45,574 bases of DNA, from the NCBI RefSeq assembly GCF_016464705.1, contig NZ_JAEHOB010000015.1:114652-160225 (forward strand). Reading direction: 5' to 3'. This stretch comes from Qaidamihabitans albus. Its GTDB lineage: Bacteria > Actinomycetota > Actinomycetes > Mycobacteriales > Pseudonocardiaceae. Both the position numbers and the translations under genes were made by a program. The notes below the pieces were generated by a model, which was given only the letters and a program-made list of their open reading frames with translations, was not told the DNA's origin and ran no database searches. Shown here in pieces: positions 14,583 to 39,930 of this stretch (positions are counted from its first letter, which is position 1; every line of letters starts with the position of its first letter).

Positions 14583-14629
14583 AAAACGGCTGGCTGAGCA
14601 GCACCGATGCGGCAGATGCGCCGCCTGGC

Positions 14630-14666
14630 GAGAGAGCCGGGAGGAGTGTCACCTCCCGGCTCTCTC
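14630..14666. terminator. Strong bidirectional terminator between glnA and the island
   Basis: A perfect 15-bp stem (14630-14644 with 14652-14666) and a 7-nt loop (14645-14651) lie between the convergent glnA and amidohydrolase genes. There is no U tract, which is common in actinomycetes. Confidence 0.75.
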
Positions 14667-14668
14667 GG

Positions 14669-15682
14669 TCAGGAGATGCCGAGGAGCCGGGCCGCGTTGC
14701 CCCCGCTGACGAGGTCGACCTCGGCCTGCGGCATCCCCTCCCTGCCGAGGAACGCCAGCGGGTCGTCCTCGCCCATGTCGTAGGGATAGTCGGTACCGAG
14801 GAGGATGCGATCGGCGCCGTACTTGTCGATCAGGAATCTCAGTTGGTCGGTCTCGAACACCATCGTGTCGAAGTAGAACCGACCGAGGTAGCTACTCGGC
14901 GGATGCGGAACTCCCTCGCTGACATCCTCTCGGGCCCGCCAGCCGTGGTCGATCCTGCCCGCGTATGCCGGCAGGTATCCCCCGCCGTGCACGACCACGA
15001 TCTTCAGGTCCGGGTAGCGCTCCATGACACCGTCGAAGATCAGGTGCGCCTGGGCAAGTGTGGCTTCGAATGCGTGGCCGATGATGTTGACGAAGTTGTG
15101 ACCCTGGAGCCGATCGGGGTGGGTCGCGCCCTGGGTATGGATCACCACGACGGCACCCAGCGCTTCCACCTCGGCCCAGAACGGGTCGAGCCGCGCGGCG
15201 GAGATCTCCTCGCCCTCCACATGCGTGCCGATCTCTATACCGCGCATCCCGAGCTCATGGACCAGGTACCGCAACTCCTGCACCGCTGCGTCGACATCCT
15301 GCAGCGGCACGGAACCCAGGGGGACGAAGCGGCCCGGACGCCTGATCGTCGCCTCCACGAGCTCTTCGTTCATCAGGCGTGACACCTTCGCGCCGAGGTC
15401 CGCGTCAGCCCAGTAGTAGAACTGGTAGACGGCAGGAGCCACGGCCTGGATGTCCACGCCCATCATGTCCATGTCGGCGATCCGGACATCGAGGTCGTCC
15501 ATCTTCGGCCTGATCGCTGCAAGCTGGCGCTCGTTCACCCTGCGCGTCGTGGCGTTCCCGTGCCCGAGGGCCACCTTTCCGGCGGCGATCGACGCCTGCT
15601 GCATGAACTGGGTCGCGGGGGCGCACTCACGGTGGCAGTGGATGTCGACGACGGGGCCGTCGCTACGGCGTGGCCTGCTCAT
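14669..15682 (-). CDS. ACMSD-type amidohydrolase (decarboxylase/hydratase family)
   Basis: A 337-aa metal-dependent amidohydrolase of the amidohydrolase_2 group, which includes 2-amino-3-carboxymuconate-semialdehyde decarboxylase and 4-oxalomesaconate hydratase. Seen: the N-terminal HxH metal motif in VVDIHCH, IHTQGATHP and IGHAFEATLAQAHLIFDGVMERYPDLKIVVVHGGG with the metal His positions, and the terminal LLGTDYPYDMGEDDP Asp. The ATG at 15682 lies 3 nt after the upstream cupin stop, so the two are co-transcribed. In this cluster it may decarboxylate, hydrate or hydrolyse a ring-opened acid. The exact reaction cannot be assigned. Confidence 0.82.
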   Translation of the reverse strand: MSRPRRSDGPVVDIHCHRECAPATQFMQQASIAAGKVALGHGNATTRRVNERQLAAIRPKMDDLDVRIADMDMMGVDIQAVAPAVYQFYYWADADLGAKVSRLMNEELVEATIRRPGRFVPLGSVPLQDVDAAVQELRYLVHELGMRGIEIGTHVEGEEISAARLDPFWAEVEALGAVVVIHTQGATHPDRLQGHNFVNIIGHAFEATLAQAHLIFDGVMERYPDLKIVVVHGGGYLPAYAGRIDHGWRAREDVSEGVPHPPSSYLGRFYFDTMVFETDQLRFLIDKYGADRILLGTDYPYDMGEDDPLAFLGREGMPQAEVDLVSGGNAARLLGIS

Positions 15683-15685
15683 GCT

Positions 15686-16036
15686 CTACACCAGCTCGCC
15701 GGTCTTGTCGTAGTTCGGATCGACGAGCAGCTTGAACGACAGCGCCGTCGTGGCTTCCTTGGCCACGGCCCGGTGCGGCACGTTGGAGGGATGGTAGCTG
15801 GCCTGGCCGGGACGGACCTCGTAGACCTGCTCGCCGAGGGTGACCTCGAAGACGCCGTCGAGCACGTAGAGGATCTGTTCCTCGGGGTGCTGGTGCATCT
15901 CCGCACCCTTGCCGGCATCGAAACGGATCTTCGTCAGCTCCATCATGTCGCTGCGAAGGACCTGCCCACGCCCGGTGGAGTAATGGCCGGCGACCAGGTT
16001 GTCCGCGTCCCGCTCATCGAAAGTTACCAGCCCCAC
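15686..16036 (-). CDS. Small cupin protein 1
   Basis: A 116-aa single-domain cupin. Seen: motif 1 GAEMHQHPEEQILYVLDGVFEVTLG (two His and a Glu as metal ligands) and motif 2 PGQASYHPSNVPHRAV with the third His. The GTG at 16036 has AAAGGAG 8 nt upstream. It is first in an operon with the amidohydrolase. It resembles the second cupin at 24237-24572, so the two probably arose by duplication. Possible roles are a small dioxygenase, an isomerase, or a metabolite-binding accessory protein. Its small size argues against a classical gentisate- or homogentisate-type dioxygenase. Confidence 0.78.
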   Translation of the reverse strand: MGLVTFDERDADNLVAGHYSTGRGQVLRSDMMELTKIRFDAGKGAEMHQHPEEQILYVLDGVFEVTLGEQVYEVRPGQASYHPSNVPHRAVAKEATTALSFKLLVDPNYDKTGELV

Positions 16037-16308: not shown

Positions 16309-17388
16309 GTGGAACGTATCAACGTAGGCGTCATCGGCACCGGCTGGTGCGGAGGGATCCGGGCCCGCACCGCCGCGGGCAGTGCTCTCGTCGGCGAGCT
16401 CCACCTGTGCGAGACGAACTCGGAGCGGTTGTCCGAAGTGGCCTCACAGACCGATGCCACGTCTGCTACCGCGGACTACGAGTCGTTGATCCGCAACCCC
16501 GACGTGCACGCGGTGATGATCTCCGCCACGCCCGAGACCACGCACTATCCGATGGCCCGCGCCGCTCTGACGGCAGGCAAGCACGTGCTGTTGGAGAAGC
16601 CACTTGCGCTCACCCTCGACGAGGCCGACGAGCTCGTGACCCTGGCGGAGAAGAACGGGTTGAAGTTCACCATCGGCTACTCGCAACGCTTCAACTCCAA
16701 GCAGGCGCTGGTGAAGAGGAGTATCGACGACGGCACTCTCGGGATACCCGTCAGTGGCCTTGTGAGCCGGCACATCACACGGAAGCTCGGCGACAAGATC
16801 GGCGGCCGGATCAAGTTGTCACCGGCCGCGATGGAGGCCACCCACGACATCGACTTCCTGCTCTGGTGCATGGAGCCGGCGAAGCCGGTGCGGGTTTACG
16901 CCCAGGCGGTCGAGCGGGTCATGAAGGACAAGTACGACGTCGCCGACTGCATGTCCATCGTCGTCACCCTGGACAACGGCGTGGTACTGACGATCGGCGC
17001 CGGCTGGGTCCTGCCGCCCGGCTACCCCAACTTCTCCTCGACCTGGATCGAGGTCGTCGGCAGCGAGGGAGCGCTCATCATCGACGACACCCACCGCGAC
17101 ACTGTCCTCAACACGATGTCGGACGGCATGATGCTGCCCCTGTCGACCATGCCCGGTGAGGAGGTGGAGCACGTTTTCGCCGGCCCGATGCACGCCGAGA
17201 CCCTGCACTTCCTCGAGGCCGTGGCCCGCGACCGGCCGGTACTCGTGACCCCGAGGCAAGCACGGCAGGCGATGGAGGTCTACATCGCCGCTGACCTCTC
17301 CGCGGAGACGAACCAGTCGGTGACGCTCCCGCTGGACACCATCCAGCAGTCGGAGGCGCTCGCCCTGGCCGGGCTCGTCACGCGCTGA
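16309..17388 (+). CDS. Gfo/Idh/MocA-family oxidoreductase 1
   Basis: A 359-aa NAD(P)-dependent dehydrogenase. Seen: N-terminal nucleotide-binding VGVIGTGWCGGIRAR, the family EKPLALTLDEADELV motif with the catalytic Lys, GYSQRFN, and the catalytic His-containing AMEATHDIDFLLWCM. The GTG at 16309 follows a GGAAGGGA ribosome site. It lies 14 nt before the molybdenum hydroxylase gene, so they are co-transcribed. It is paralogous to the second Gfo/Idh protein (30528-31661): both share a DDTHRDTVL/EDTHRDLVL block. The family oxidises hydroxyl, imine or sugar-like substrates, and LigC of protocatechuate 4,5-cleavage is a member. The substrate here is unknown. Confidence 0.85.
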   Translation: MERINVGVIGTGWCGGIRARTAAGSALVGELHLCETNSERLSEVASQTDATSATADYESLIRNPDVHAVMISATPETTHYPMARAALTAGKHVLLEKPLALTLDEADELVTLAEKNGLKFTIGYSQRFNSKQALVKRSIDDGTLGIPVSGLVSRHITRKLGDKIGGRIKLSPAAMEATHDIDFLLWCMEPAKPVRVYAQAVERVMKDKYDVADCMSIVVTLDNGVVLTIGAGWVLPPGYPNFSSTWIEVVGSEGALIIDDTHRDTVLNTMSDGMMLPLSTMPGEEVEHVFAGPMHAETLHFLEAVARDRPVLVTPRQARQAMEVYIAADLSAETNQSVTLPLDTIQQSEALALAGLVTR

Positions 17389-17402
17389 GCTGAGCGCACG
17401 CG

Positions 17403-20072
17403 ATGAGCGAAGAGCATCCAGAGATCACGCTGGAGGTCAACGGGCATCGACACCGGTTGCGGGTGCGGCCCACGACTCCGCTGATGTACGTGCTGCGCAA
17501 CGACCTCGGGCACAAGGGCGTACGAACCGGCTGCTCCATCGGCGAGTGCGGCGCGTGCCGTGTCCTCATCGACGGCGCGTCCGTCCAGTCCTGCCTGACG
17601 CCGGTCTCGGAGGTCGCCGGGTCCAGCGTCACCACGCCCGAAGGCCTCGGTGGCCCGGAGAGCCCTCATCCAGTGCAGCAGGCCTTCCTCGACGAGCAGG
17701 CGGGCCAGTGCGGCTACTGCGTCAACGGCATGATCGTGAGCGTCGCCGCCCGTATCGATCAAGAACCCGCACCCAGCGCCGAGGACCTGCGCGACACCCT
17801 TGATGAGCACTTGTGCCGCTGTGGCACCCACGCAAGGATGCTGCGGGCCGCGGCCCGGTCGGCCGGCCTTCCGTGCGACGCGGGCAGGGGTAGCGCCGAC
17901 GAGCCGGACGAGAATCCTGGCCACGGTGCCGACGGGCCGATGGATCTCGAGCTCCCGGCCGCGGTACACCGGGACCCACAGATTCGGCGTTGGGTAGAGC
18001 TGCGCGAGGACGGGGACGTGCTGTGCTATCCCGGCAAGGTTGAGCTCGGGCAGGGCACCAGGACCGCCTTCAGGCAGATAGTGGCCAGCCAGCTGGGCCT
18101 GCCCGTCGAGAAGGTCCATGCCTGTCCTACCGCGACCGACCGTTCCCCCGACCAGGGGCAGACATCAGGCAGCTTCTCGATGGAGCACGGCGGCGAGGCC
18201 CTGGCCATGGCTGCGGCCGCCTTGCGACGGGTACTCGTCGCGAGAGCCGCGCGACAGCTGGACGCTGCCCGGGAGGGGATCGAGCTCGACGCCGACGGAG
18301 TGCTCGACGCCGCCACGGGACGACGGCTCTCGCTGGCGGAGCTGGCGGCGCTGGGACCGGTGGAGGAGCCTATCGAGCCGTCCGATCGACCCGACTGGGA
18401 TGCACCCGTGCTCGGGCAACCGGTCGCGCGCGACGACCTTCGCGTCAAGCTCACCGGGGCTCCCGCCTACGTCCAGGACATGACCATGCCGGGCATGGTT
18501 CACGCGAGGACCGTCCTTCCACCCGCGTACGACGACGTACCCACCCGGTTCGACATCGACGCCTCCCGCAGCCTTTCCGGTGTGCTCGACGTCGTGCAGG
18601 ACGGGCGGCTCATCCTGGTGGTGACCGAGCGCGAGGACCAGGCCGTGCGCGCCCAGGCCCGCCTCAATGCGCAGATCAGCTGGCAGCGCGGGCGTGACAT
18701 CGACGAGCACGATACCGAACGCCTCTTGCGCAGCCTGCCCGTCGAAGAGTACGTGCACCGCCGCGACGACAACGTCCGGGAGCGACTGAGCTCGGCGCGC
18801 ATTCATCAAGCGTCATACGCCAAGCCCTACCAGGCCCACGGACCGATGGCCCCCTCTGCGGCGCTCGCGGTCATGGAGGGCGATCTCCTGACGGTGTGGA
18901 CGCACAGCCAGGGCGTGTATCCGCTGCGTCGGGAGATGGCCGCCTTTCTCGACATGGACGAGGAGCAAATCGTCGTCCGGCACGCGGACGGGCCCGGCTG
19001 CTACGGGATGAACTGCGCCGACGATGCTGCCATGTTCGCCGCCGTCGCGGCGCGTGCCGTCCCGGGTCGCCCCGTCCGCTTCCAGTTCTCCATGCCGGAA
19101 GAGTTCGGCTGGGACGCGTACGGACCCGGAATGGTCGGTGACCTCGAGGCTGCGCTCGGCGACGACGGATCCATCCAGGCATGGCACTACCGGGTGATCT
19201 CCGACTCGCACAGCACCAGGCCGAACGGTGACGGAGATCGGTTGATGGCCGCGTGGCTGAGCTCGCGGGACGCCGAGCGACCGTGGGCAGGCCTGGGTGA
19301 ACCGTCTGCCCGCAACGCCTTGCCCCTGTACGACGTCCCGGCCATGGACATCACCTCGCACGGTGTGCGCGGCCCGTTGCGTACCGGCCCGCTGCGCTCG
19401 CTGGGTGCGTTCTTCAACGTGTTCGCCACGGAGTCCTTCATCGACGAGCTGGCCGAGCGCGCAGGGGCTGACCCCGTCGCCTTTCGCCTGGCGCACCTGC
19501 GTGACGAGCGGGCGATCCGGGTGCTCGAGGCTGCCGCCGAGCGCGCCGGCTGGCAGCCGCACGTCGGGCCGAGCGGTCGAGGCCTAGGTGTCGCGTTCGC
19601 CCGGTACAAAGACACCAAGGCATACGTCGCCGAAGTCGCGGAGGTGGAAGTGGACACCGAGCGCGCCGACTTCCGTGTCACCCGCCTGGTGGCCGTGTGC
19701 GACGCAGGAACAGTCGTCAATCGCGATGGTCTTCGTAACCAGCTCGAAGGCGGGCTCATCCAGGGGCTCAGCCGCACCCTGCACGAGGAGCTGAGCCTGG
19801 CGGAGGACGGTGTTCGCGAGCGGGACTGGACGACGTACCCGACCCTGCGCTTCGCCGGGGTCCCGGAGCTCGACGTCACCGTCCTGGATCGGCCTGGCCT
19901 GCCTCCGCTGGGTGCGGGCGAGGTGAGCACTCCTCCGGTGCCGGCAGCGGTGGCCAACGCCATCGACGACGCGATCGGGGTCCGGCTGCGGAAGCTCCCC
20001 CTGACAGTCGGCAGCCTCGAGAGCCGCCTGATGGAGATGGACGAACAGGAGTCGAGTCGGGTGCTCCTCTGA
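17403..20072 (+). CDS. Fused 2Fe-2S / molybdopterin hydroxylase (xanthine dehydrogenase superfamily, IorAB-like)
   Basis: An 889-aa fusion of the usual separate small and large subunits. Residues 1-155 are the small subunit: plant-type 2Fe-2S Cys at 44, 49, 52 and 64 (CSIGECGAC ... C) and the second cluster at 103, 106, 138 and 140 (CGYC ... CRC). Residues about 180-889 are the molybdopterin subunit in the permuted order of isoquinoline 1-oxidoreductase IorB (GKVELGQGTRTAFRQI first, then the hammerhead region). The catalytic Glu is near residue 840 in GAGEVSTPPVPAAVANAI. No FAD subunit or XdhC-type maturation gene is nearby, so electrons must go to a cytochrome or another acceptor. It is likely to hydroxylate an N-heteroaromatic ring or an aldehyde. 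Confidence 0.88.
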   Translation: MSEEHPEITLEVNGHRHRLRVRPTTPLMYVLRNDLGHKGVRTGCSIGECGACRVLIDGASVQSCLTPVSEVAGSSVTTPEGLGGPESPHPVQQAFLDEQAGQCGYCVNGMIVSVAARIDQEPAPSAEDLRDTLDEHLCRCGTHARMLRAAARSAGLPCDAGRGSADEPDENPGHGADGPMDLELPAAVHRDPQIRRWVELREDGDVLCYPGKVELGQGTRTAFRQIVASQLGLPVEKVHACPTATDRSPDQGQTSGSFSMEHGGEALAMAAAALRRVLVARAARQLDAAREGIELDADGVLDAATGRRLSLAELAALGPVEEPIEPSDRPDWDAPVLGQPVARDDLRVKLTGAPAYVQDMTMPGMVHARTVLPPAYDDVPTRFDIDASRSLSGVLDVVQDGRLILVVTEREDQAVRAQARLNAQISWQRGRDIDEHDTERLLRSLPVEEYVHRRDDNVRERLSSARIHQASYAKPYQAHGPMAPSAALAVMEGDLLTVWTHSQGVYPLRREMAAFLDMDEEQIVVRHADGPGCYGMNCADDAAMFAAVAARAVPGRPVRFQFSMPEEFGWDAYGPGMVGDLEAALGDDGSIQAWHYRVISDSHSTRPNGDGDRLMAAWLSSRDAERPWAGLGEPSARNALPLYDVPAMDITSHGVRGPLRTGPLRSLGAFFNVFATESFIDELAERAGADPVAFRLAHLRDERAIRVLEAAAERAGWQPHVGPSGRGLGVAFARYKDTKAYVAEVAEVEVDTERADFRVTRLVAVCDAGTVVNRDGLRNQLEGGLIQGLSRTLHEELSLAEDGVRERDWTTYPTLRFAGVPELDVTVLDRPGLPPLGAGEVSTPPVPAAVANAIDDAIGVRLRKLPLTVGSLESRLMEMDEQESSRVLL

Positions 20073-20113: not shown

Positions 20114-20704
20114 TCAGTCGCTCGCCGGTGCGCGCACGTCGGCCGCGGCGAGCACACCGGCCAGCAACTGGTAGTAGCCTACGAGCACGGCGATCTCGAC
20201 CAGCCCCTCATGGCCATGATCGGCGGAAACCTCCGCATGGACGGAGTCGTCGACGACGTGGTCCCGCAGGAGCGCGTGCGCCAACCGCAGCGCCGAGCGC
20301 TCCGCTGCCGACAGCCCTGCGAGCAACGCGCCGTTGCGCAGGCCGTCGAGTTCCGTACTACTGATGCCCACCTCGAGGGCCATCCGGCGGTGGGCGTACC
20401 ACTCGTAATCGGAGTCGACCTCAGCGGCCACCGCGCAGATGACCAGTTCGCGAGTGCGCGCCGGCAGCGTCCCCTCGAAGCGAAGCGCGACACCGAGGCG
20501 TTGCACCTGCGTCGCGAGCGCGGGAACGTACATTAGCGCGTTGAACGGCCCGGTCAGGTGACCGGCCTCGTCGACGATCGGCAAGGGTCCGCCACCGCGC
20601 GGGCCGTTCGCGATGGCCTCGTAGACGGCGCGCTGCTCGGGTGTCAGGCTCTCGGGCGCAAGCAGCGGGAACCGGTGGCGCGCGGTAGACATCGTGCGCG
20701 TCAT
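20114..20704 (-). CDS. Carboxymuconolactone decarboxylase-like (AhpD-fold) protein
   Basis: A 196-aa protein of the carboxymuconolactone decarboxylase/AhpD superfamily. Seen: FNALMYVPALATQVQRLGVALRF, then RTRELVICAVAAEVDSDYEWYAHRRMALEVG, where the EWxxH box is typical, and a second helical repeat. The AhpD CxxC redox pair is absent, so peroxidase activity is unlikely. The ATG at 20704 overlaps the TctB stop (ATGA), and an ATG at 20692 is an alternative. It is last in the tctC-tctA-tctB operon. It may act as a decarboxylase or lactonase-like enzyme on the transported acid; this is inference. Confidence 0.75.
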   Translation of the reverse strand: MTRTMSTARHRFPLLAPESLTPEQRAVYEAIANGPRGGGPLPIVDEAGHLTGPFNALMYVPALATQVQRLGVALRFEGTLPARTRELVICAVAAEVDSDYEWYAHRRMALEVGISSTELDGLRNGALLAGLSAAERSALRLAHALLRDHVVDDSVHAEVSADHGHEGLVEIAVLVGYYQLLAGVLAAADVRAPASD

Positions 20705-21180
20705 CCCTGCGGAAGGGCAACGAAGAACAACTGGGTGAACACCAGATACGCCCCCACACATGCCGCGAGCGCGATGACGGAGGACACGAGTGCCGTCCGC
20801 CAGTTCCTGGTGGCACTCAGGAAGACCGACGCCAGTGCGAGCATGAAGAAGCTGGGCACCCAGAAGCCCACCAACGCAATCGAAACGGCGTACACCACCG
20901 CTCCGGCAGCGAAGATCACCACGCCCATCGCAGCCGCCGGCATCCGCAGATCCGAGGGCCGCCCCTGAACTACCTTCCAGACACCGGATACCACCAGCAT
21001 GACGGCGACAGCGAAGAGCGTGTACGTCAGGACGCGCGGAAAGATCCAGTTCCGTATATCGTCTCCCATCTGCGAGAGGGAGACCAAGCCCAGCGTCGCC
21101 AGCACCGCGGCACCGGCGAGGTCGGCGTTGGGCCTAAACAGACGTCCCGGCATCGCCGCTGGGTGCGTTGTGGACTTCAT
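20701..21180 (-). CDS. TctB small membrane subunit of tripartite tricarboxylate transporter
   Basis: A 159-aa TctB protein with about four transmembrane segments (DLAGAAVLATLGLVSLSQ, FPRVLTYTLFAVAVMLVVSG, MGVVIFAAGAVVYAVSIALVGF, ALVSSVIALAACVGAYLVF). TctB subunits pair with TctA and are poorly conserved, so the call relies on topology plus position. The gene overlaps tctA by 47 bp. The ATG at 21180 has AAGAAGGA upstream at good spacing. Confidence 0.82.
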   Translation of the reverse strand: MKSTTHPAAMPGRLFRPNADLAGAAVLATLGLVSLSQMGDDIRNWIFPRVLTYTLFAVAVMLVVSGVWKVVQGRPSDLRMPAAAMGVVIFAAGAVVYAVSIALVGFWVPSFFMLALASVFLSATRNWRTALVSSVIALAACVGAYLVFTQLFFVALPQG

Positions 21181-22666
21181 GTGCATCCTTCTTCCTATCC
21201 CTTTGCCTCTGGTAGACAGACCAGCCCACCGAGAACGCCGTCAGCGCGATGAGCACGATGCTCACGGTGGAACCGAGGAACACGTCCGTCATGGACGACG
21301 CCTCGGAAAGGGCCAACGACTGCACCAGGGCCGGCTCGACGATCGGCCCGAGAATCAGGCCCAGTCCGATCGGCCCGGCATGGAACCCGATCTTCGAGAC
21401 CAGGTAGCAGAAGACCCCGAGGCCGATCATGAAGTAGACGTCCAGCATGTAGTTGCGAATCGCGAACGACCCGATGACCGAGAAGAAGAGGATGATAGGT
21501 GCCAGCATCCGTACGGGGATGCTGATCATCCGAACCAGACCGCGGGACAGAACCATGCCGAAGGCGAAGGTGGCGACGCCGGCCAGGATGATCGCCCAGG
21601 CGAAGCTGTAGACGAGTGTGGAGTCTGTCGCGAAGAGGGTCGGACCCGGGCGCAGGCCCTGCAACAGCAGAGCACCCAGGATGACCGCGGCCGGCGCAGA
21701 GCCGGGGACCCCGAGGATCATCATCGGCACCATCGAGCCACCGGCGGCCGCGTTCCCCGCGGTCTCCGAGGCTGTCACACCTTCGATCGCCCCTTTGCCG
21801 AAGCGCTTCCTGTCCTTGCTCCACCGGACCGCTTCGTTGTAGGAGAGCAAGGAGGCCACCGGACTTCCGGCTCCCGGAAGGATGCCGACGAACGTGCCCA
21901 GCAGGCCGGACCGCATGAGGTGCCATGGCTTGGTCATCACTGCCTTGACGGCTTCGAGTGCCTCACCACGCCGTGGCGAGTACTCGGCGACGTACTCCTT
22001 CTCCCGCCGGCGCAGGACCATGTCCAGGACCTGCGGCAGCGCGAAGACTCCGATCAGGGCCGCCACTAGGCTTACGCCACCCTCGAGCTCACCGAAGCCG
22101 AAGGTGTACCGGCTCTCAGCACCTGTCTTGCTGAGCCCGACGGTCCCGATGAGCATGCCGATCGCGCCACCCGCGATCCCCTTGATCATCGAGTTTCCAG
22201 CGATGCTCGCGATGATCGTGACGGCGAAGACGCCGACCCAGAAGAACTCCGGTGGCCCGAAGGTCAAGGCGACGTCGGCCAGCGGCCCTGACAGGAACAA
22301 GAAGCAAAAGCCGCCGATGAACGTGCCGACCATGGCACTGAAGCACGACGCGACAAGTGCGGTGCGACCCTTGCCCTGGAGGGTCATTTTGAACCCGTCC
22401 AAGGCTGTCGCCATGGCGGAGGGAGTGCCGGGGGTGTTGATCATGCAGGCCGGTACCGAGTCGGCGAACATGGCCGCGACGTACAGCGCGCCCAGCATCG
22501 CCAGAGCCGCTGTGGGCTCCATGGTGAAGGTAAACGGCAGCAGGAGGGCAGTCCCCATCGTGGCCGTGAAGCCCGGGAGGGCGCCCATGATGATGCCCCC
22601 CACCACACCGATGCATATCACCAGAAGCACGTCCGGCGAAAGCGCCGCCATGAGTCCTTCGAGCAT
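21134..22666 (-). CDS. TctA large membrane subunit of tripartite tricarboxylate transporter
   Basis: A 510-aa multispanning permease of the TctA family (usual length about 500). Seen: GGIIMGALPGFTATMGTALLLPFTF, NTPGTPSAMATALDGF, the duplicated LPGAGSPVASLLSYNEA and ILGVPGSAPAAVILGALLLQGL blocks. The paired Pro-Gly loops are the family signature. The ATG at 22666 follows GGGAG. The subunit drives secondary transport of organic acids captured by the periplasmic binding protein TctC encoded upstream. The next downstream gene is tctB (overlapping). Confidence 0.93.
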   Translation of the reverse strand: MLEGLMAALSPDVLLVICIGVVGGIIMGALPGFTATMGTALLLPFTFTMEPTAALAMLGALYVAAMFADSVPACMINTPGTPSAMATALDGFKMTLQGKGRTALVASCFSAMVGTFIGGFCFLFLSGPLADVALTFGPPEFFWVGVFAVTIIASIAGNSMIKGIAGGAIGMLIGTVGLSKTGAESRYTFGFGELEGGVSLVAALIGVFALPQVLDMVLRRREKEYVAEYSPRRGEALEAVKAVMTKPWHLMRSGLLGTFVGILPGAGSPVASLLSYNEAVRWSKDRKRFGKGAIEGVTASETAGNAAAGGSMVPMMILGVPGSAPAAVILGALLLQGLRPGPTLFATDSTLVYSFAWAIILAGVATFAFGMVLSRGLVRMISIPVRMLAPIILFFSVIGSFAIRNYMLDVYFMIGLGVFCYLVSKIGFHAGPIGLGLILGPIVEPALVQSLALSEASSMTDVFLGSTVSIVLIALTAFSVGWSVYQRQRDRKKDAHEVHNAPSGDAGTSV

Positions 22667-26382: not shown

Positions 26383-26391
26383 CTGGCTCAT

Positions 26392-32847: not shown

Positions 32848-33921
32848 TCAGGCACCATCCGATGTCGCCGCAGGAAAGGGATGGTCTGTGATGCCGAGCC
32901 GTTCGGCCAGCTCGCGAAGCCGATTCGCGGTGCCGGGCGGCAGCGTCAGACCGTGCTCGGCCGCCGCACGCTGCCGCCGGGGCATCTGGTCGCCGGGAAC
33001 ACGGACCGGCGGCTGCCCCGGCATGGGTGTCGACGAGCGCAGCTCGCGGATCCGCTCGTCCATCTCCACCTTGAACGCCTCGAGCGGCTGGAACAGGTCC
33101 GGCCGCACCATCACCAGTGTCTGCCCCGTGTTGGTCGGCGTGTCGTGATCCTGCGTGAAGTCGACGACCCGGCTTCCGAACGCGGCCCCGTTGAGCACGC
33201 CGGCGAGCATGCCGATCACCAGCCCCAGCCCGTAGCCCTTGTAGCCGCCGATCGGCACCAGAAAGCCCTCGCCGCTTCGGTTCGGATCGGTCAGCGGGGC
33301 ACCGGTCCGGTCGACCATCCAGCCTTCGGGGAGCGTTTCTCCCTGATCCCGGGCGATCTTGATGCGGCCGTACGAAACCACCGTCGTAGCCATGTCCAGC
33401 ACGATCGGCGCCTCGAGCCCCGCGGGGATCGCCACCGCCAACGGGTTTGTGCTCAGCAACGGATCGGTCCCGCCCCAAGGAGGAAGATGGTTCGAACTTC
33501 CGACCGCGAGGTAGACCCCGATCAAGTCGTGCTCCAGGGCCATCGACGCGTACACGCCCGCCGCGCCGGCATGGTTCGAACCCCGTACCCCGACCCACGC
33601 GACTCCGTGCTCCGCCGCCTTCTTGATCGCGATGTCGGCGGCCCGAGTCAGAACGACCTGCCCGATACCGTTGTCCCCCTCGACGAGCGCGCTGACCGGC
33701 GTCTCATGCGTCGCACGGATATCCGGCCGGACGTTGTACCCGCCGGCCTGGAGCCTCGCGACGTACTGGGGAAGGCGAAAGACTCCGTGCCCGCTCATAC
33801 CGCGCACGTCGGCGTCGAGCATCCGGCGAGCTGCGACCTCGGCGTCGTCGAAGGGTACGCCGTGCTGTTGCAGGACGAGCCGAACGAACGCCAGCAGCTT
33901 CGAGACCGGGTACCGGGTCAC
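32848..33921 (-). CDS. Malate/L-lactate/ureidoglycolate dehydrogenase-family (Ldh_2) oxidoreductase
   Basis: A 357-aa Ldh_2-family NAD(P)-dependent dehydrogenase (malate, sulfolactate, ureidoglycolate and hydroxyacid members). Seen: SGHGVFRLPQYV, the GVRGSNHAGAAGVYASMALEH block containing the catalytic His, STNPLAVAIPAG, LDMATTVVSYGRI and GGYKGYGLGL. The GTG at 33921 follows a GTAGGT-like site and lies 30 nt after the GntR stop, so the two are co-transcribed. It probably oxidises a 2-hydroxy acid of opposite stereochemistry to the D-specific enzyme downstream; this is inference. Confidence 0.87.
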   Translation of the reverse strand: MTRYPVSKLLAFVRLVLQQHGVPFDDAEVAARRMLDADVRGMSGHGVFRLPQYVARLQAGGYNVRPDIRATHETPVSALVEGDNGIGQVVLTRAADIAIKKAAEHGVAWVGVRGSNHAGAAGVYASMALEHDLIGVYLAVGSSNHLPPWGGTDPLLSTNPLAVAIPAGLEAPIVLDMATTVVSYGRIKIARDQGETLPEGWMVDRTGAPLTDPNRSGEGFLVPIGGYKGYGLGLVIGMLAGVLNGAAFGSRVVDFTQDHDTPTNTGQTLVMVRPDLFQPLEAFKVEMDERIRELRSSTPMPGQPPVRVPGDQMPRRQRAAAEHGLTLPPGTANRLRELAERLGITDHPFPAATSDGA

Positions 33922-33951: not shown

Positions 33952-34665
33952 CTAGACGATGTGCTCACGGGCGTCGTCGAGCACACGCAACGTCAGGTCG
34001 AGATGGGTTCGGGTCAGCTCGGCGCAACGCTCGGAGTCCCCCGCCGCGATCGCTTCGAGAATCAGCAGATGTTGCTCGTTCGCCATTTCGAACTGCTCGC
34101 GTCCCTGGCTGCGCAAGGCCATGGCGACGTACGGCGCCAAATTCCCCGACAGCGAGATCAACAGGTTGCGGAGGCGCACGGACGGGGTGGCGTCGAGAAG
34201 CTGTCGATGGAAGTCCTGATTCAGCTCCGCCCACAGCGCGGAATCGGTCTCCGTGCGCATTCGCTCTGCCAGCTCGCGTGCCCTGTCCACCACGGCACGC
34301 GAGGCCGTTGTCGCGACCTGGCGCATCGCCTCCGGCTCGACAAGCCGAGACAGCTGATGGATGTCCAACAGATCCTCGAAGGTGAGCTGGGACACCGTCC
34401 CGCCACGGTGCGCATCGAGCTGCACCAGCCCCTCGGTAGCGAGGTCACGCAGCGCCTCGCGGACCGGTGTCGTGCTGACGCCAAGGCGTTCGGCGATCTC
34501 CGACTGGACCAGGCGCGTGCCGCCCTGGAGCGTTCCCCTCAGGATCCCCTGCCGAAGCGCTTCCCGCACGTACTGGTGAGCTGTCCGACGAGGGCCACCC
34601 AAGGTCAGTGCGACATCTGGACCCAAGGCGGCGGCCAAACCTCCATCCTGAGTACCAAACGCCAT
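33952..34665 (-). CDS. GntR/FCD-family transcription regulator
   Basis: A 237-aa FadR-type regulator, the only one in the island. Seen: a winged helix-turn-helix (ILRGTLQGGTRLVQSEIAER, then LGVSTTPVREALRDLATEGLV, GGTVSQLT). The FCD domain has the metal/ligand pattern D-x-x-x-H in NQDFHRQ, H in ANEQHLLIL and H in LTRTHLDL. It senses an organic acid in the family. The ATG at 34665 follows GAAAGG. A longer form from ATG 34767 would be nearly leaderless from a TACAGT -10 at 34778-34773. It likely controls the island operons; TGTACA at 34774-34779 overlaps its own promoter and suggests autoregulation. Confidence 0.85.
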   Translation of the reverse strand: MAFGTQDGGLAAALGPDVALTLGGPRRTAHQYVREALRQGILRGTLQGGTRLVQSEIAERLGVSTTPVREALRDLATEGLVQLDAHRGGTVSQLTFEDLLDIHQLSRLVEPEAMRQVATTASRAVVDRARELAERMRTETDSALWAELNQDFHRQLLDATPSVRLRNLLISLSGNLAPYVAMALRSQGREQFEMANEQHLLILEAIAAGDSERCAELTRTHLDLTLRVLDDAREHIV

Positions 34666-34772
34666 AGGACACACCTTTCCTCGCCCACCCCCCGGGGGTC
34701 GGGACTCCCTTGTCTCGCCTCGACCGGCGCCGACTCGTGCGGCTCCAGCGCCTAGCGAAAATGCCATTACAC

Positions 34773-34855: not shown

Positions 34856-35821
34856 TCACTTCATCGCTGCCGCCGCGTCCCGAGTAGCCTTCCGCTGCTC
34901 CTCGAAGTACTTGCGGGCTTCGTCCACATTCTGGTGGAGAACGGTGAAACCGGCCCCCTCCTCGTACTTCTTCTTGACCTCAGGATCCTCCAGAGCTTGC
35001 TGCACCGCCTCGTTCCAGGTCTGGACGATCTCGTCAGGAGTCTCCGGAGGCAGGATGAAACCCCAGGTCGTCACCAGCTTGACCCCCGGGTAACCGGCCT
35101 CCCCGAAGGTGGGCACGTCTGGGAACGCGTCCGAGGGAGCCGACAGCACCAACGGCTTGAGCTGGTCGCCGTCGAGCAGCGAGAAGCCGGAGACGGCGGA
35201 GTCGATGTGGCCGCCGAAGACCTTGAAGATGATGTCGCCGACACCACCGCTCACCGGGACGTAAGACAGCTCCATCCCCGTCGCCTTGTTGATCTCGCTC
35301 ATCAGCAGTCGGCCGTTGTCACCGACCCCGGCGATCGTCATCCCGCCCGGTGCGGACTTCGCCTCGTCGATGAAGGCCTCAATCGAGTCGTACGGCGCGT
35401 TCTTGGACACGGCGATGATGTTGGGAGAGAACTCCGTCCATGCGATGTACTCGAAGTCGGCAGCTTTGAAACCGACATCTCCGCCCATGCTGAGGTTGAC
35501 GATGTTCGGCGCCACCACGTTCGAGATCGTGCACCCGTCGGGCTCGGCGTCGGCAAGCGCGTTCCAGCCGACCGCGCCGTCGCCGCCCTCCATGTAGGTG
35601 ACATTCAACCTCTTGCCGAGCGCGTCCTCCAGGGCCGGCTGCAACCGTCGAACCTGCTGGTCCGACCCGCCGCCCGGGGAGTACGGAACGATGACCCGGA
35701 TGGTCGGGCAGTCGAGGCCGCCCTGCGCGTTGGAGGTGCCGCCTCCCCCCGGCGACGAGCACGCCGCCAGGACAAGCGCCGAGACAGTGACGAGGAGCAC
35801 GATCAGTTTCCGTGTTCGCAT
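34856..35821 (-). CDS. TctC substrate-binding lipoprotein 2 (orphan)
   Basis: A 321-aa TctC-family lipoprotein with signal peptide and lipobox VLAAC (Cys near residue 21). Seen: CPTIRVIVPYSPGGGSDQQV, MTIAGVGDNGRLLMSEINK, PVSGGVGDIIFKVFGGHIDSAV and GFILPPETPDEIV. It is a paralogue of the TctC at 22816-23808, with the same block order. No TctAB genes lie beside it, so it may share the TctAB encoded at 20701-22666, or act as a sensor or scavenger. The ATG at 35821 follows AAAGG. It is divergent from the isochorismatase-type gene over a 112-bp AT-rich region. Confidence 0.92.
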   Translation of the reverse strand: MRTRKLIVLLVTVSALVLAACSSPGGGGTSNAQGGLDCPTIRVIVPYSPGGGSDQQVRRLQPALEDALGKRLNVTYMEGGDGAVGWNALADAEPDGCTISNVVAPNIVNLSMGGDVGFKAADFEYIAWTEFSPNIIAVSKNAPYDSIEAFIDEAKSAPGGMTIAGVGDNGRLLMSEINKATGMELSYVPVSGGVGDIIFKVFGGHIDSAVSGFSLLDGDQLKPLVLSAPSDAFPDVPTFGEAGYPGVKLVTTWGFILPPETPDEIVQTWNEAVQQALEDPEVKKKYEEGAGFTVLHQNVDEARKYFEEQRKATRDAAAAMK

Positions 35822-35861
35822 GCTCGCGGCCTTTCTGAAGCGAGGACGGAGGGCAGGCACG

Positions 35862-35933: not shown

Positions 35934-36635
35934 ATGCACATCGACGCCGAGGACCGTAGCCAGTTCAAAGATGCGATGAAGGACCTGCTGATCATCGACC
36001 GGTCTCGTACGGTGGCGCTGACGATCGACCTGCAGCGCGAGTACCTCGACGAGTCGGTGGGCCAGTCGGTCGTCGAGCCGGACGAGGCCGAGCGGGTCCT
36101 GAAGGCCAACGAGCGCCTGCTGGACGCCTGCCGAGCCGCGAGCATTCCCGTTGTCCACGCCTACGTCGAGCGCCCCCAGCACGAGCTCGACGCCGGCTTC
36201 TACGCCGGGGGGCTGGCCTATCTCAAGGCCGCACAGGAGGCAGGGATCTCCCAGATGCCGCACCGGCCTGCCAGGACACGCATCGACCGGCAGGCCGGCG
36301 CACCGGAGGCAGAGGTGCCTGCGGGTCTGGTCGCCCCCTCGGACATCCACATCCGGGACAAGAAGAGCCTGGACAGCTTCGCCCACACCGAGCTGGAGTT
36401 CCTGTTCTCCCGGATCTTGCGCCCCACGTTCGTCGTCATGACCGGCATCAACACCGACACCTGCGTCTATGCGACGACCTTCACTGCTGCGAACCTCGGC
36501 TACTCGCCCATCGTCGTGACCGACTGCGTGGCGAGCATGCGAGGGAAGGACTCGCACCGGATGGCGCTCGAACTGATGTCTCGCAGCATCGCGTGGGTGC
36601 TGACCCTCGACGAACTTCTGGAACGGCTCGGCTGA
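35934..36635 (+). CDS. Isochorismatase-family cysteine hydrolase
   Basis: A 233-aa cysteine hydrolase of the isochorismatase/nicotinamidase superfamily. Seen: the catalytic triad Asp32 (ALTIDLQREYL), Lys143/144 (DIHIRDKKSLDSF) and Cys177 (INTDTCVYATTFTA). Amidases with this set include N-carbamoylsarcosine amidase, maleamate amidase and biuret hydrolase. Here the insertion RPARTRIDRQAGAPEAEVPA near residues 111-130 is an extra loop. The ATG at 35934 follows AGGGAG. It likely cleaves an amide or carbamoyl group, releasing ammonia close to the GS system; the substrate is unknown. Confidence 0.87.
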   Translation: MHIDAEDRSQFKDAMKDLLIIDRSRTVALTIDLQREYLDESVGQSVVEPDEAERVLKANERLLDACRAASIPVVHAYVERPQHELDAGFYAGGLAYLKAAQEAGISQMPHRPARTRIDRQAGAPEAEVPAGLVAPSDIHIRDKKSLDSFAHTELEFLFSRILRPTFVVMTGINTDTCVYATTFTAANLGYSPIVVTDCVASMRGKDSHRMALELMSRSIAWVLTLDELLERLG

Positions 36636-36689: not shown

Positions 36690-38372
36690 TTACGCGGTCT
36701 CCCGTAGTGGGTCACCGACCGGCAGAACCGACACCCTTCCGTTGTCTCCGTCGACCGCGATCAGCGGTTCGCTCCCGTCATCAGGGATCACGAGGTTGCA
36801 GCCGACCACGGTGGGGACCCCGATGGAGTGGGCGAACTCGATCAAGTGGGCCGACGTACTACCCGCCCGTGTCACCATGCCCGCCGCGTTCCACAACAAC
36901 GGCGCCAACGCGGGGACCGGCTGGCCGGCGACGATGACGTAGCGCCCCTCCGGCGAGGGCGATCGCGACTCGCTGGTGAAGATGTACGCCCTTCCGGCGC
37001 CCGCTCCCGGCGCCGCCGCCCTGCCGTGATGGCACTCGCCCGCTGCCCGCACCACCCCGTGCACGAACGGTTCCCACCGGTCTGCGCCGAGCCGGGTCTC
37101 CGCCCAGGCCAGTCCCTCGGCGAGCACCCGCTCGAGCTCGTCCGCACCCAGCCGCCAGAATGACGCGTCCGAATCGAGTACTCCCGTGGAGCGCAAGTAC
37201 CGCCGGACGGTTTCCAGATGGCCCAGGATCGACGCCGCTCGGTCCGGGCTGAAACTCGGCAGACCGGCCAGCACGTCGATGGCCGCGGCCGGGGCGCTGC
37301 CACGAAGGTTGCGCAGCACGCGCTCGGCCTCCGCCCTGGCGCTGCGCGGCGACCCACCCCACAGCTGCGCGACCAGTGCGTTCGCCTCGGCGCGGGCAGC
37401 CGCCAACGCAGCAGTCGGCGAGGTGTCGGAGGGCACGACGTCGGGCACCCGCCCTCCGAGCGCCGCCGCCCACGGCAGGACGAGCTCGTGTCCCAGCCGC
37501 CCGGGGCAGCGCTGAGTCCAGGCGGCTACCCGCACGGCGACGTCCGACAACAGGGTGGGCTCGACCGTCGCGGGGTGGGTCTCCCCCGGCGGGGACGCCA
37601 CGGACGACCGCAAACTCTGCAGGAGGTACACGCGCCCCTCGGCGGCGGCCCACTCGATCAGTTGGTGTTCGAGCACCTCGTGGACCCGGCGGACCAGCCC
37701 CGCGACGCGCCGCGCCAGGTGCTCGTGGACATCCCCATGCTCACGGACGGAGTCGTCCGGCCCGACGGCCGATACGGAGCCCTCGACATGACCCTCCATC
37801 AGGGGGAACAGCGGGCCGGTTGTCGACGTGATCTCGACGCTGCCGTCGGCTCTGAGCGCAGCGGTGCCGCCGACATCAGGCTGCAGCTCGGGCTGCACCA
37901 GCACCGCCAGGCCGAGATCTTCCGGCGATGTGCCGGTGTTACTCGCCCTGTCGAGGACGCCGGCCGAAAATGCCGACCCCCAGCAGCCCCGGACCGCGGT
38001 GCCCAGGTCGTCGACCGTGATCCCGTGGAAGCTGGAGAACGCGCCCGACCATGTGCCGTCGGCCTCGAGGGGGCTCGAGGAGCGCACGATCAATGGCTCC
38101 GAGAAGCCGCTCAGTCGCGCGCACAGCTCGCCGAGCAGCTCTGCCTCAGGTTCCGTCTTCATGACCGCGAGCCGGGCGCGACCGGCGCTCCCGTGGGAGC
38201 CCAGCGCACCCGTCGCTGCGCTGACCACGTCGGCGGACTCCACAACGGGTACGACCACTCCGGGAAGCACCGGGAGACCGGCCGCGGACGCCACGGCCAG
38301 ACCGGCGGCCTTGGCGCCCGCGACGGCGGCGTCGCGCGCTGCCTCGTCGGACAACGTCAATACGCGCGGCAC
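36690..38372 (-). CDS. PEP/pyruvate-utilising-like protein (ATP-grasp plus phosphohistidine domain)
   Basis: A 560-aa protein shorter than PEP synthase (about 790) and rifampin phosphotransferase (about 860). The N-terminal half has the PPDK/PEPS ATP-grasp-like stretch LIVRSSSPLEADGTWSGAF. The C-terminal end has the swivelling phosphohistidine-like block GMVTRAGSTSAHLIEFAHSI, followed by GVPTVVGCNLVIPDD. The usual TSHAA sequence is changed, although a His remains in the aligned position. The central PEP/pyruvate-binding TIM barrel is missing. The GTG at 38372 lies 2 nt after the M24 stop with a GAGG site, so the two are co-transcribed. The reaction is unknown; an ATP-driven phosphotransfer to a small substrate is possible. 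Confidence 0.7.
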   Translation of the reverse strand: MPRVLTLSDEAARDAAVAGAKAAGLAVASAAGLPVLPGVVVPVVESADVVSAATGALGSHGSAGRARLAVMKTEPEAELLGELCARLSGFSEPLIVRSSSPLEADGTWSGAFSSFHGITVDDLGTAVRGCWGSAFSAGVLDRASNTGTSPEDLGLAVLVQPELQPDVGGTAALRADGSVEITSTTGPLFPLMEGHVEGSVSAVGPDDSVREHGDVHEHLARRVAGLVRRVHEVLEHQLIEWAAAEGRVYLLQSLRSSVASPPGETHPATVEPTLLSDVAVRVAAWTQRCPGRLGHELVLPWAAALGGRVPDVVPSDTSPTAALAAARAEANALVAQLWGGSPRSARAEAERVLRNLRGSAPAAAIDVLAGLPSFSPDRAASILGHLETVRRYLRSTGVLDSDASFWRLGADELERVLAEGLAWAETRLGADRWEPFVHGVVRAAGECHHGRAAAPGAGAGRAYIFTSESRSPSPEGRYVIVAGQPVPALAPLLWNAAGMVTRAGSTSAHLIEFAHSIGVPTVVGCNLVIPDDGSEPLIAVDGDNGRVSVLPVGDPLRETA

Positions 38373-38374
38373 GT

Positions 38375-39613
38375 TCAGCCTGCCTCGATGATCTCGTGCG
38401 ACTTGTAAGTCGACACCATGTCGGCGCCGTCGTCGGTGACGATGAGCATCTCCTCGAGCCGCACGCCGTGATCGAACTTCTTTCCGTGCTGGGTCTCCAG
38501 CGCGAAGACCATTCCGGGCTGGATCTCCTGGGGATGGTCCAGGGACCAGATACGCGAGATGACCGGCTGGTCGTACTGGGCGAGCCCGAGTCCGTGGCCC
38601 CACAGGTTGGCGGCGGCCTGGTCCTCGTCGACGTAGCCCCATGCCTCGGCGGCCGAAGGCCACTTGCTGGCGATGTCTGCGGTCGTCACACCGGGACGAA
38701 CCGTCTCGATCGAGTCCCACAGCCACTTGTGGGCGGTGTCGTAGGTTTGCCGGTGCTCGTCCGTGGGCTTGCCTCCCACACAGTAGGTGCGGTACACGCA
38801 CGACTTGAAACCGTTCCAGGTCAGCGCCGCGAGGTCGATGATGACGAGCTCACCGGGACGGATGATGCGGTCGGAGAAGTTGCGCCAGTTCGGCCACGCG
38901 TTGGGCCCCGAGGACACGATGACGTCCTCGACGTCCTCCATGCCCGGGATCGAGTACAGGTACTCGAAGCCGAAGGCGGCGACCTCGTTCTCGGTCAGCC
39001 CGGGCTTCAGGAACTGGCTGAACTCGTAGTGCAACGCGTCACAGATGGCGCCCACAATGCGGACCGCCTTCTGCTCGTCCGGACTCTTGATGGCGCGTGC
39101 CTCCATCATCGGCGTCATGCCGTCGGTCCAGGTGATGCCCGCGCGCTCGAAGGAGCGGATCATGTTGATGTCGATGAAGTCCACGCCGAGTGGCTTGTCC
39201 CGCACGCCCGCGTCCTCGAGATCACCAAGGATGGCTTCGGTGAACTTGTCGACCTGCTGCGTGGACGCCGGCCCGGCCGCACCCTTGATCCAGGCGAAGG
39301 AGTGGCGGATGTTCTCCTTGGGGATCCACGGGTTGTGCACCTCGAGGTGGAAGCCGATGTCACCCTGCTCGTATACGATCGGCGCCTTGCCCTCGACGAG
39401 CAGGACATAGCGCAGACCCGGCTTCAACCGGTTCCAGCCCGGGGTGTACGTCGAGGAGACGTAGCGCATGTTCTCGTCGTACATGCACAGGATGGCACCC
39501 AGCCCGTGCCGCGCCATCGCCTCGCGTGCCCGTGACAGCCGCCACTCGCGGACCTTCGCCCAGTTGATGCCCTCCTTCCAGTCGCTGCTCAGGACGCCGA
39601 ACGCTTCCTTCAT
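38375..39613 (-). CDS. M24/creatinase-fold protein with an altered metal site
   Basis: A 412-aa pita-bread-fold protein (Xaa-Pro aminopeptidase/creatinase family). Seen: an N-terminal domain, then the first metal Asp in VIIDLAALTWNGF. The second metal Asp is replaced by Cys in the aligned KSCVYRTY segment (canonical SDxTRT). The metal His sits in LWGHGLGLAQYDQP, but the later His of that motif is Tyr. The two Glu positions are kept (GMVFALET, VRLEEMLIVTDDG). Creatinase members are metal-independent, so a hydrolase of an amidino or amide substrate is possible. The ATG at 39613 follows GGAGGAG. It is first in a two-gene operon with the PEP-utilising-like gene. Confidence 0.83.
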   Translation of the reverse strand: MKEAFGVLSSDWKEGINWAKVREWRLSRAREAMARHGLGAILCMYDENMRYVSSTYTPGWNRLKPGLRYVLLVEGKAPIVYEQGDIGFHLEVHNPWIPKENIRHSFAWIKGAAGPASTQQVDKFTEAILGDLEDAGVRDKPLGVDFIDINMIRSFERAGITWTDGMTPMMEARAIKSPDEQKAVRIVGAICDALHYEFSQFLKPGLTENEVAAFGFEYLYSIPGMEDVEDVIVSSGPNAWPNWRNFSDRIIRPGELVIIDLAALTWNGFKSCVYRTYCVGGKPTDEHRQTYDTAHKWLWDSIETVRPGVTTADIASKWPSAAEAWGYVDEDQAAANLWGHGLGLAQYDQPVISRIWSLDHPQEIQPGMVFALETQHGKKFDHGVRLEEMLIVTDDGADMVSTYKSHEIIEAG

Positions 39614-39696
39614 GCTCGCTCCTCCAGATCCAATGCACCCACCCCGCACGCGCAGAGCCATGACAGTTTGCAAAATGTAGCATATCTCAAAGTGTT

Positions 39697-39930
39697 CGTC
39701 CGGGGCTTCGAGGCGCCGGTCAGCCTCGTGTACTCACGGCCGCTCGGCTTCCCCTGCCCGGACGCGTCCGGGAACCGGGGCCGATCGACAAGGACGTCTA
39801 CGAGGTGCCACCCAGGAGGCGACGGGCGCCAAGCTCTTCACACCGGACGTGATCGGGACGGGGATCGCGTTCGAGCGGAGCACCAGATCGACCCGCTGCG
39901 GCTGTGCCCGCACCTTCACCCGAGCCTGCG
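39697..39930 (+). pseudogene. glnA: Decayed 3' remnant of glnA
   Basis: Four collinear blocks match the intact glnA in the same orientation. These are glnA 14134-14193 (the [11 protein letters not shown] region), about 14248-14276 (the CPDSSGNP region), 14342-14390 ([10 protein letters not shown] region) and about 14472-14575 ([12 protein letters not shown] ... [10 protein letters not shown]). The segments between them are deleted, so roughly 440 bp is reduced to 235 bp, with frameshifts. This is a remnant of the last third of a glnA-type gene, not a functional enzyme. It lies between the island and glnE, where intact glnA would sit in the ancestral order. Confidence 0.85.

Follow-up and report, generated by a model that had tools for sequence, protein, structure and literature searches.

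A 21-gene insertion beside glnA in Qaidamihabitans albus: a probable catabolic island at a family-wide insertion hotspot

Background

Catabolic islands in insertion hotspots are known as a kind of thing, and among the known systems closest to the locus reported here are the actinomycete integrative and conjugative elements (AICEs). In a survey of 144 AICEs, insertion, as described for tyrosine-integrase AICEs, was mostly into tRNA genes, with one integrase subfamily excepted, and as far as its main text goes the string "glutamine synth" does not occur (PMC3218068). We analyzed a 45,574-nucleotide stretch of Qaidamihabitans albus DNA, hereafter the window (RefSeq assembly GCF_016464705.1, contig NZ_JAEHOB010000015.1, positions 114,652 to 160,225 of the forward strand; family Pseudonocardiaceae), from a genome of 6.5 Mb in 63 contigs. 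In this window, 21 genes separate the glutamine synthetase gene glnA from glnE. In our reading, these genes are a catabolic island that was acquired horizontally and entered at a hotspot for insertion across the family, the 3' end of glnA; its cargo is in good part a recurring gene module. We put the probability of this reading at roughly 0.7.

Two relatives in the family (G055 and G034) have AICE-type genes in the same interval, and those of G055 are bounded by the end of glnA and an exact 15-bp repeat. The island in the window differs from them: it has no integrase, replication, or transfer genes, and what is repeated at its border is glnA, as a long and decayed copy. Neither glnA as an attachment site nor the enzyme combination of the island was found described in open-licence PMC articles, which leaves their absence in print not established. 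The locus would be a clean example of how a catabolic island, arriving behind a core gene at a hotspot used across the family, leaves a scar in the form of the glnA relic. Synteny defines a recurring gene module whose substrate can be tested.

Results and discussion

The 21 genes are an insertion

A codon-bias gene caller placed 21 genes at 14669-39613 (window positions throughout), on seven strand runs. To their left is an intact glnA (13158-14582, plus strand; PF00120 at 457.5 bits and PF03951; 94% identical to that of the congener), whose 3' end is the insertion site, and the right anchor is glnE (40787-43759, minus strand; PF03710). An initial annotation, made from the letters alone, had counted 21 genes between the two, and gene calling bore out that count. 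It had called the genes an insertion with reference to the adjacency of glnA and glnE in Mycobacterium tuberculosis, which we take to be correct, and had proposed a comparison of gene order in relatives; here, adjacency was tested within the family instead.

Both genes were located in the same 100 Pseudonocardiaceae genomes. They lie on one contig in 94 and on different contigs in five, while one genome gave no glnE match, and they are convergent in all 94 testable genomes. The gap between them ranges from 196 bp to 39.4 kb, with a median of 2.4 kb (the gaps of G060 and G069 were measured from the glnE C-terminal match only). In this genome the gap is 26.2 kb, the third largest of the 94, compared with 635 bp in the congener (G020). 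In each of the four empty-site relatives inspected, a 4HBT thioesterase gene alone separates glnA from glnE, and it is also present in the window, outside the insert (40291-40734, minus strand; PF13279). We therefore take the ancestral order to be glnA, thioesterase, glnE, with the insert lying between glnA and the thioesterase. The comparison upholds the claim: the 21-gene stretch is a real insertion, not an arrangement ancestral to the family.

Composition also deviates. The GC content is 67.4% in the island and 71.3% in the flanks, and GC at third codon positions (GC3) is lower in the 21 island genes (0.865) than in the full set of 16 flank genes (0.898; p = 0.005). The stretch thus shows an empty site, bracketing direct repeats, and deviating composition, the features by which genomic islands are recognized. 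No tRNA gene was found in the window, and no Rfam family matched it at gathering score. As a separate observation, the glnE query matches G069 (C26:163566-177744) in two pieces (query 33-576 and 674-989) on the same strand with over 11 kb between them, a pattern that would fit an interrupted glnE in that genome.

A glnA relic at the right border

When the empty-site loci were compared with the island by BLASTN, glnA itself matched the window at 39696-39914 (plus strand). The match consists of four collinear pieces in direct orientation, corresponding to glnA nt 977-1393 with deletions (E = 2e-25, 5e-15, 3e-12, and 4e-4). Identity was computed from blocks of 20 nt or longer, which supply 190 sites, with shorter blocks excluded. 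On this basis, the 219-bp relic is 90.0% identical to the window's own glnA and 84.2% to that of the congener, with values of 81.6-83.2% for four other glnA genes. At the 13 informative sites, where the glnA genes of the window and the congener differ, the relic matches its own in 12. Since the relic carries its own lineage's substitutions, the simplest account is that it was copied once this lineage had diverged from G020. The island is therefore bracketed by glnA sequence, and the right edge that the initial annotation had set at 39700 agrees with the start of the relic.

No second copy of the last 18 nt of glnA with fewer than four mismatches occurs in the window, so a short exact attachment repeat was not found here. 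We also looked for glnA relics in the corresponding intervals of 14 other genomes and found none beyond the glnA ends and short matches; a few of these stretches included hardly any glnA, or none. A chimeric glnA, with its 3' end from a donor, was considered and is not supported; identity to the congener does not change stepwise along the gene. Between the relic and the thioesterase lie 376 unexplained bp (39915-40290) that contain near-palindromes such as ACGTCACACAATGTGACAT; at E ≤ 0.01 they matched none of the other loci compared.

In the mechanism we propose, a circular molecule, itself carrying the 3' part of glnA, would have entered by one crossover in or at that part of the gene, either homologous or integrase-driven. 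Such an arrival would leave an intact glnA on the left, a 5'-truncated copy of glnA, now decaying, on the right, and the native downstream DNA beyond it.

The interval between glnA and glnE is an insertion hotspot

As a control interval we used the other side of glnA (DUF4191-glnA), which lies on one contig in 99 of the 100 genomes. Gaps above 5 kb were found in 25 of 94 glnA-glnE intervals versus 1 of 99 control intervals (Fisher p = 4e-8). The sole control interval of that size is in G067 (C22), with 40 kb between DUF4191 and glnA.

For comparison with the window we used the four empty sites and the interval from each of 14 further genomes, namely the 13 remaining islands above 10 kb and that of G094 (8.3 kb); the G034 interval lacked its last 0.7 kb beside glnA. 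The contents of the other intervals are mostly unrelated to those of the window. In G008, TctA and TctC proteins are 32% and 29% identical to the window's. A tyrosine integrase lies beside glnA in G066 (L065:128-8708), where 20 bp across the glnA stop codon are repeated exactly 8.6 kb further on. In G055 (L067:5139-15770), the exact 15-bp repeat lies 10.6 kb from the end of glnA, and the element that they delimit encodes an integrase, RepSA, and FtsK; the same 15-bp repeat occurs in G016, 10.7 kb on. G034 also has an integrase (68% identical). Integrases were thus found in three of the 14 intervals, by a Pfam scan covering ten of 200 called proteins and by a similarity search with the first two integrases as queries. 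In G055 and G066, AICE-type elements apparently use the end of the protein-coding gene glnA as their attachment site. A hotspot shared across the family accounts better for the position of the island next to glnA than does a connection with nitrogen metabolism.

Elsewhere in the family, the same place holds a CLC channel, AICE-type genes, an SNF2 helicase, a biotin carboxylase, and a PPDK_N protein. This variety also favors another account, in which any DNA could settle between the two convergent genes and the island would be, in whole or in large part, a mosaic of several unrelated arrivals. We consider it possible but less likely than not, and the readings weighed in this report are not mutually exclusive with our own.

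Two further observations concern these intervals. Three genomes of one genus (G034, G067, and G095; loci L069, L078, and L079) have a common, different block between glnA and glnE that includes a 666-aa PPDK_N-domain protein. The interval of G010 (L074:8176-10641) encodes an 821-aa protein with a weak match to Pertussis_S1/Scabin-like ADP-ribosyltransferases.

A recurring gene module

Much of the right half of the island recurs in other genomes around one gene, a DRE-TIM (HMGL-like/2-isopropylmalate-synthase-like) enzyme (26663-27928, plus strand; PF00682 at 216 bits), which we used as a module marker. At E ≤ 1e-90, this gene was found in 1 of 390 genomes of the family, its own, and in 9 of 395 other genomes of the phylum (10 of 396 with its own). 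Among the DRE-TIM loci, nine of which came from the scan of named genomes, that of Phytoactinopolyspora halophila is the nearest relative found (82% identical), and the two are sisters with 100/100 support in a tree of 18 rows. The other eight of these nine loci are in metagenome-assembled genomes (MAGs) labelled Actinomycetes (four), Propionibacteriales (two loci on one contig), Acidothermales (one), and Chloroflexi (one). No plasmid carried the gene at E ≤ 1e-50.

In P. halophila (NZ_QMIG01000011.1, locus L028), nine island genes lie together. Seven are in the order of the window: those for the DRE-TIM enzyme, a CinA-like protein (29177-30514, minus strand; MoCF_biosynth, KH, and CinA domains, PF00994, PF18146, and PF02464), the second of two Gfo/Idh/MocA dehydrogenases (Gfo2; 30528-31661, minus strand; PF01408), a D-isomer 2-hydroxyacid dehydrogenase (2HADH; 31698-32639, minus strand; PF02826 and PF00389), an Ldh_2 malate/L-lactate-type dehydrogenase (32848-33921, minus strand; PF02615 at 366 bits), a GntR/FCD regulator (33952-34767, minus strand, the gene caller favoring an internal start at 34569; PF00392 and PF07729), and the second TctC-type binding protein (TctC2; 34856-35860, minus strand; PF03401). 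Across the DRE-TIM gene lie the other two, encoding a PEP-synthase-like protein with ATP-binding and His swivel domains (PEPS; 36690-38354, minus strand; PF01326 and PF00391) and an M24-fold protein (38375-39613, minus strand; PF00557). Identities are 90% for M24, 82% for DRE-TIM, 80% for Gfo2, 71% for 2HADH, 65% for Ldh_2, and 64% for TctC2, and the swivel-type histidine of PEPS, in a GSTxAHLIEF stretch, is retained. The exceptions to the common order are an MFS transporter gene in the window (28064-29164, plus strand, with a possible open reading frame start at 27977; PF07690) and, in P. halophila, an additional FrsA-like hydrolase gene and a second GntR gene. P. halophila also has an ABC importer, and the left half of the island, glnA, and glnE are absent within the 21 kb examined.

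Smaller combinations occur in other loci. Three genomes of another family (L049, L050, and L051) have the DRE-TIM, M24, and PEPS genes together with 2HADH; an ACMSD-like amidohydrolase lies in between at L049 and L050, and a fragment of one lies upstream at L051. L054 combines DRE-TIM with a three-subunit molybdenum (Mo) enzyme, an amidohydrolase, and a gene resembling those of zinc alcohol dehydrogenases; where its contig ends there is a fragment of M24. CocE follows DRE-TIM and M24 in L030 and L032. The CinA gene sits within a catabolic run in the window, at the same place in L028, and in a distant form in L048.

To quantify the association, 19 DRE-TIM loci (291 kb) were compared with 30 control loci (308 kb) at matches above 100 bits; 14 of the control loci, selected because they have a Mo enzyme, span no more than 3-6 kb each. 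The counts, in DRE-TIM versus control loci, were 10 vs 0 for GntR, 9 vs 0 for M24, 7 vs 0 for 2HADH, and 4 vs 0 for PEPS; 3 vs 0 each for the amidohydrolase, the first Gfo/Idh/MocA dehydrogenase (Gfo1), Gfo2, and Ldh_2; 2 vs 0 each for CocE and CinA; and 1 vs 0 each for MFS, the first TctC (TctC1), and TctC2. CocE relatives at E ≤ 1e-120 were found in 3 of 295 other genomes of the phylum, and two of these (G405 and G538) also have the DRE-TIM gene. In G538, CocE (67% identical) has as its neighbor a fused Mo enzyme of 888 aa (54%), and the 10.3-kb stretch with both also includes a Gfo2 relative (66%); another contig carries DRE-TIM, Gfo1 (63%), Ldh_2 (51%), MFS, and a distant CinA. We suggest from these gene neighborhoods that the module is found mainly in Actinomycetota and is built around a DRE-TIM carboligase or lyase and a Cys-variant M24 protein; its partners would be a His-swivel ATP phosphotransferase, 2-hydroxyacid dehydrogenases, Gfo/Idh dehydrogenases, CocE, and a Mo enzyme, under GntR control. 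The gene set of the island looks like a transferable pathway module with possible accretions.

Points against a single catabolic arrival

Several results weigh against reading the whole stretch as one acquired catabolic island. Among the 21 genes there is none for a transposase, an integrase, replication, or transfer. The relic, at 219 bp, does not resemble the short repeats of G066 and G055, so the insertion mechanism may differ from theirs. GC3 ranges overlap, with five flank genes at island-like values of 0.80-0.88. TctB, the carboxymuconolactone decarboxylase-family (CMD) protein, both cupins, and the isochorismatase-type hydrolase were matched in 0 vs 0 of the DRE-TIM and control loci, TctA in 0 vs 1, and the fused Mo enzyme in 0 vs 14, so the cargo need not be one pathway or one arrival. 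Nor are the 19 loci all independent: L030-L032 are near-identical in the tree, L033 and L034 share a contig, and L052 and L053 share a genome. Many DRE-TIM loci end at contig ends and the control loci are partly short, and several GntR and Gfo matches are distant (26-43%) or represent one gene matched by two queries (both Gfo queries in L028 and L048, both TctC queries in L028). Finally, the DRE-TIM lid motif, GERAGN, is of the synthase-like and not the lyase-like kind, which fits catabolism less simply.

The genes absent from the 19 loci are a point in favor of the mosaic account. G538, although on separate contigs, combines DRE-TIM, CocE, Gfo1, Gfo2, Ldh_2, and the fused Mo enzyme, and this counts against that account, as do the long order in common with P. 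halophila and the equal GC3 of the left and right halves of the island (0.861 vs 0.869, p = 0.50). Part of the island may be accretion.

The lid motif, together with a weak similarity of PEPS to prodigiosin ligases (44 and 41 bits), would suit a biosynthetic cluster in which a Claisen-type synthase, a phosphotransferase, and dehydrogenases make a specialized metabolite, with the MFS protein as exporter. We think this quite improbable: two TctC proteins with TctA and TctB, a GntR-FCD regulator, and many hydrolases indicate uptake and breakdown, and ABC-type and DctP-type importer genes are present in the loci of relatives.

Predicted function of the island

The families named in the initial annotation were supported by Pfam and NCBIfam matches, and three genes were added to them, encoding the CMD protein (20114-20704, minus strand; PF02627), the MFS transporter, and the CinA protein. 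Uptake is represented by a complete TctABC set above cut-off, with TctB (20701-21153; PF07331), TctA (21134-22666; PF01970 at 443 bits), and TctC1 (22816-23808; PF03401), all on the minus strand, in addition to TctC2. TctA has a relative at E ≤ 1e-100 in 1 of 248 other family genomes, 43% identical. The remaining genes on the left encode an amidohydrolase_2 protein (14669-15682, minus strand; PF04909 at 154 bits), ACMSD/decarboxylase-like, with ACMSD chains as its closest solved relatives and no NCBIfam match; two small single-domain cupins (15686-16036 and 24237-24572, both minus strand; PF07883); Gfo1 (16309-17388, plus strand; PF01408; nearest solved structure DgpA); and a CocE/NonD hydrolase (24667-26391, minus strand; TIGR00976 at 260 bits, cut-off 66.3). 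On the right there is also an isochorismatase-type cysteine hydrolase (35934-36635, plus strand; PF00857), in which the residues of the catalytic triad of this family, Asp, Lys, and Cys, are present. A search for a shared A/T-rich operator motif found no 9-mer with at least five A/T that recurred in three of 13 intergenic regions.

The DRE-TIM enzyme resembles 2-isopropylmalate and homocitrate synthases in its LRDGEQ, HxH (HFHMD), and GERAG motifs, and its closest solved relative is homocitrate synthase 6ktq. It differs from them in falling under the curated cut-off of every NCBIfam model among the best 25 of 28 matches, including the synthase equivalogs (301.7 vs 517 bits and 284.3 vs 462.9 bits), in a conserved WFTSPWN stretch near the N-terminus, and in its catabolic context.

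The Mo enzyme (17484-20072, plus strand, with a possible open reading frame start at 17403; PF00111, PF01799, PF02738, and PF20256) is a fused, FAD-less hydroxylase with two [2Fe-2S] domains and permuted Mo-binding domains, in which the Fe-S cysteines and the GAGE motif were found. Residues 171-287 match canonical residues 425-541 (4zoh_A) ahead of the MoCoBD_1 match, so that an N-terminal Mo segment corresponds to the C-terminal half of canonical enzymes. Residues 158-848 are collinear with 8gy3_C, an aldehyde dehydrogenase large subunit and the best solved relative, as in the permuted hydroxylases that we take to be of the IorB/AldH type; the window's enzyme differs in having its Fe-S and Mo parts in a single chain. 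Relatives at 33-47% identity were found in 14 of 297 other genomes of the order (E ≤ 1e-80). Aldehyde oxidation is thus at least as likely as N-heterocycle hydroxylation, and the N-heterocycle substrate of the initial annotation finds no special support.

This bears on the degradation of pyridine carboxylates (nicotinate or picolinate) by a variant pathway, with the M24 protein perhaps replacing the metal-dependent ring-opening step. Enzyme types of such pathways include a Mo hydroxylase, an ACMSD-like decarboxylase, and an isochorismatase-type amidase, and all three families are present in the island. We nevertheless judge it unlikely. The Mo enzyme is nearest to an aldehyde dehydrogenase, the isochorismatase lies outside the recurring module, and, as the initial annotation had said of ring-cleaving oxygenases, no hydroxypyridine dioxygenase or other ring-cleaving family is among the 21 genes at E ≤ 0.001.

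Sulfonate or 2-hydroxyacid catabolism, in which the Ldh_2 and D-isomer dehydrogenases would invert a 2-hydroxyacid via its oxo acid, draws on a known arrangement, since such a pair occurs with a TTT importer in sulfolactate use. The 2HADH gene adjoins Ldh_2, the top NCBIfam match of Ldh_2 is L-sulfolactate dehydrogenase (NF040650, 259.2 bits), and a TauE-family gene adjoins GntR, DRE-TIM, and M24 in L030. That score is, however, far under the curated cut-off of 500, and no recognized C-S bond-cleaving family is among the 21 genes, unless the M24 protein acts in this way; we hold this alternative, too, to be improbable.

Under the reading we prefer, that of an acquired catabolic island, the substrate is probably an organic acid, judging by the protein families, and a single complete catabolic route is plausible. 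The TTT and MFS carriers would bring in a carboxylated compound, which the CocE, isochorismatase, and M24 proteins may release from ester, amide, or C-N links. The Mo and NAD enzymes would then oxidize the released compound to a 2-oxo acid, and the DRE-TIM enzyme would join this acid to, or split it from, an acyl-CoA unit entering central metabolism. The initial annotation had proposed a complete route for an organic acid or N-heterocycle, feeding ammonia and 2-oxo acids into central metabolism. The insertion it claimed is real and many of the genes belong to a recurring set, so it is supported in part; the completeness of the route, the ammonia and 2-oxo acid feed, and the N-heterocycle are conjectural.

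A more ambitious joint proposal, which we advance tentatively and consider doubtful as a whole, has two halves. One would be an undescribed, oxygenase-independent catabolic pathway scattered across Actinomycetota (the marker is also in one Chloroflexota MAG), marked by DRE-TIM and a Cys-variant M24 protein that lacks the peptidase metal site and has a new C-N or C-C cleaving role. In the other, integrative elements of Pseudonocardiaceae would repeatedly use an attachment site within a protein gene, at the 3' end of glnA, to deliver cargo with nitrogen control unharmed.

The Cys-variant M24 protein

M24 metallopeptidases have five metal ligands, D-D-H-E-E. The window's protein has the set D-C-H-E-E, with Cys272 at the second Asp. 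It aligns almost end to end with 4s00, a structure that we regard as a DddP-type DMSP lyase, and retains the Asp, His, Glu, and Glu positions of the fold shared by DddP and prolidase; the cysteine at the second common Asp ligand sets it apart. The Cys form was also observed in eight close M24 orthologues adjoining DRE-TIM genes. The Asp is retained in two M24 paralogues (L030 and L057) and in a distant DRE-TIM-linked protein of L057, so the Cys form follows the closer clade and not every DRE-TIM neighbor.

Plasmids gave 45 records of M24 relatives, all below 60% identity, and three neighborhoods among them gave no clue to the substrate. The three plasmid relatives compared, out of these 45 records, all have the Cys form (L058:8980-10362, L059:8986-10365, and L060:8923-10221) and are annotated as Xaa-Pro peptidases. 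The plasmid and window proteins are possibly a broad misannotated subfamily, and the name Xaa-Pro peptidase that public plasmid records give to Cys-for-Asp M24 proteins may be wrong.

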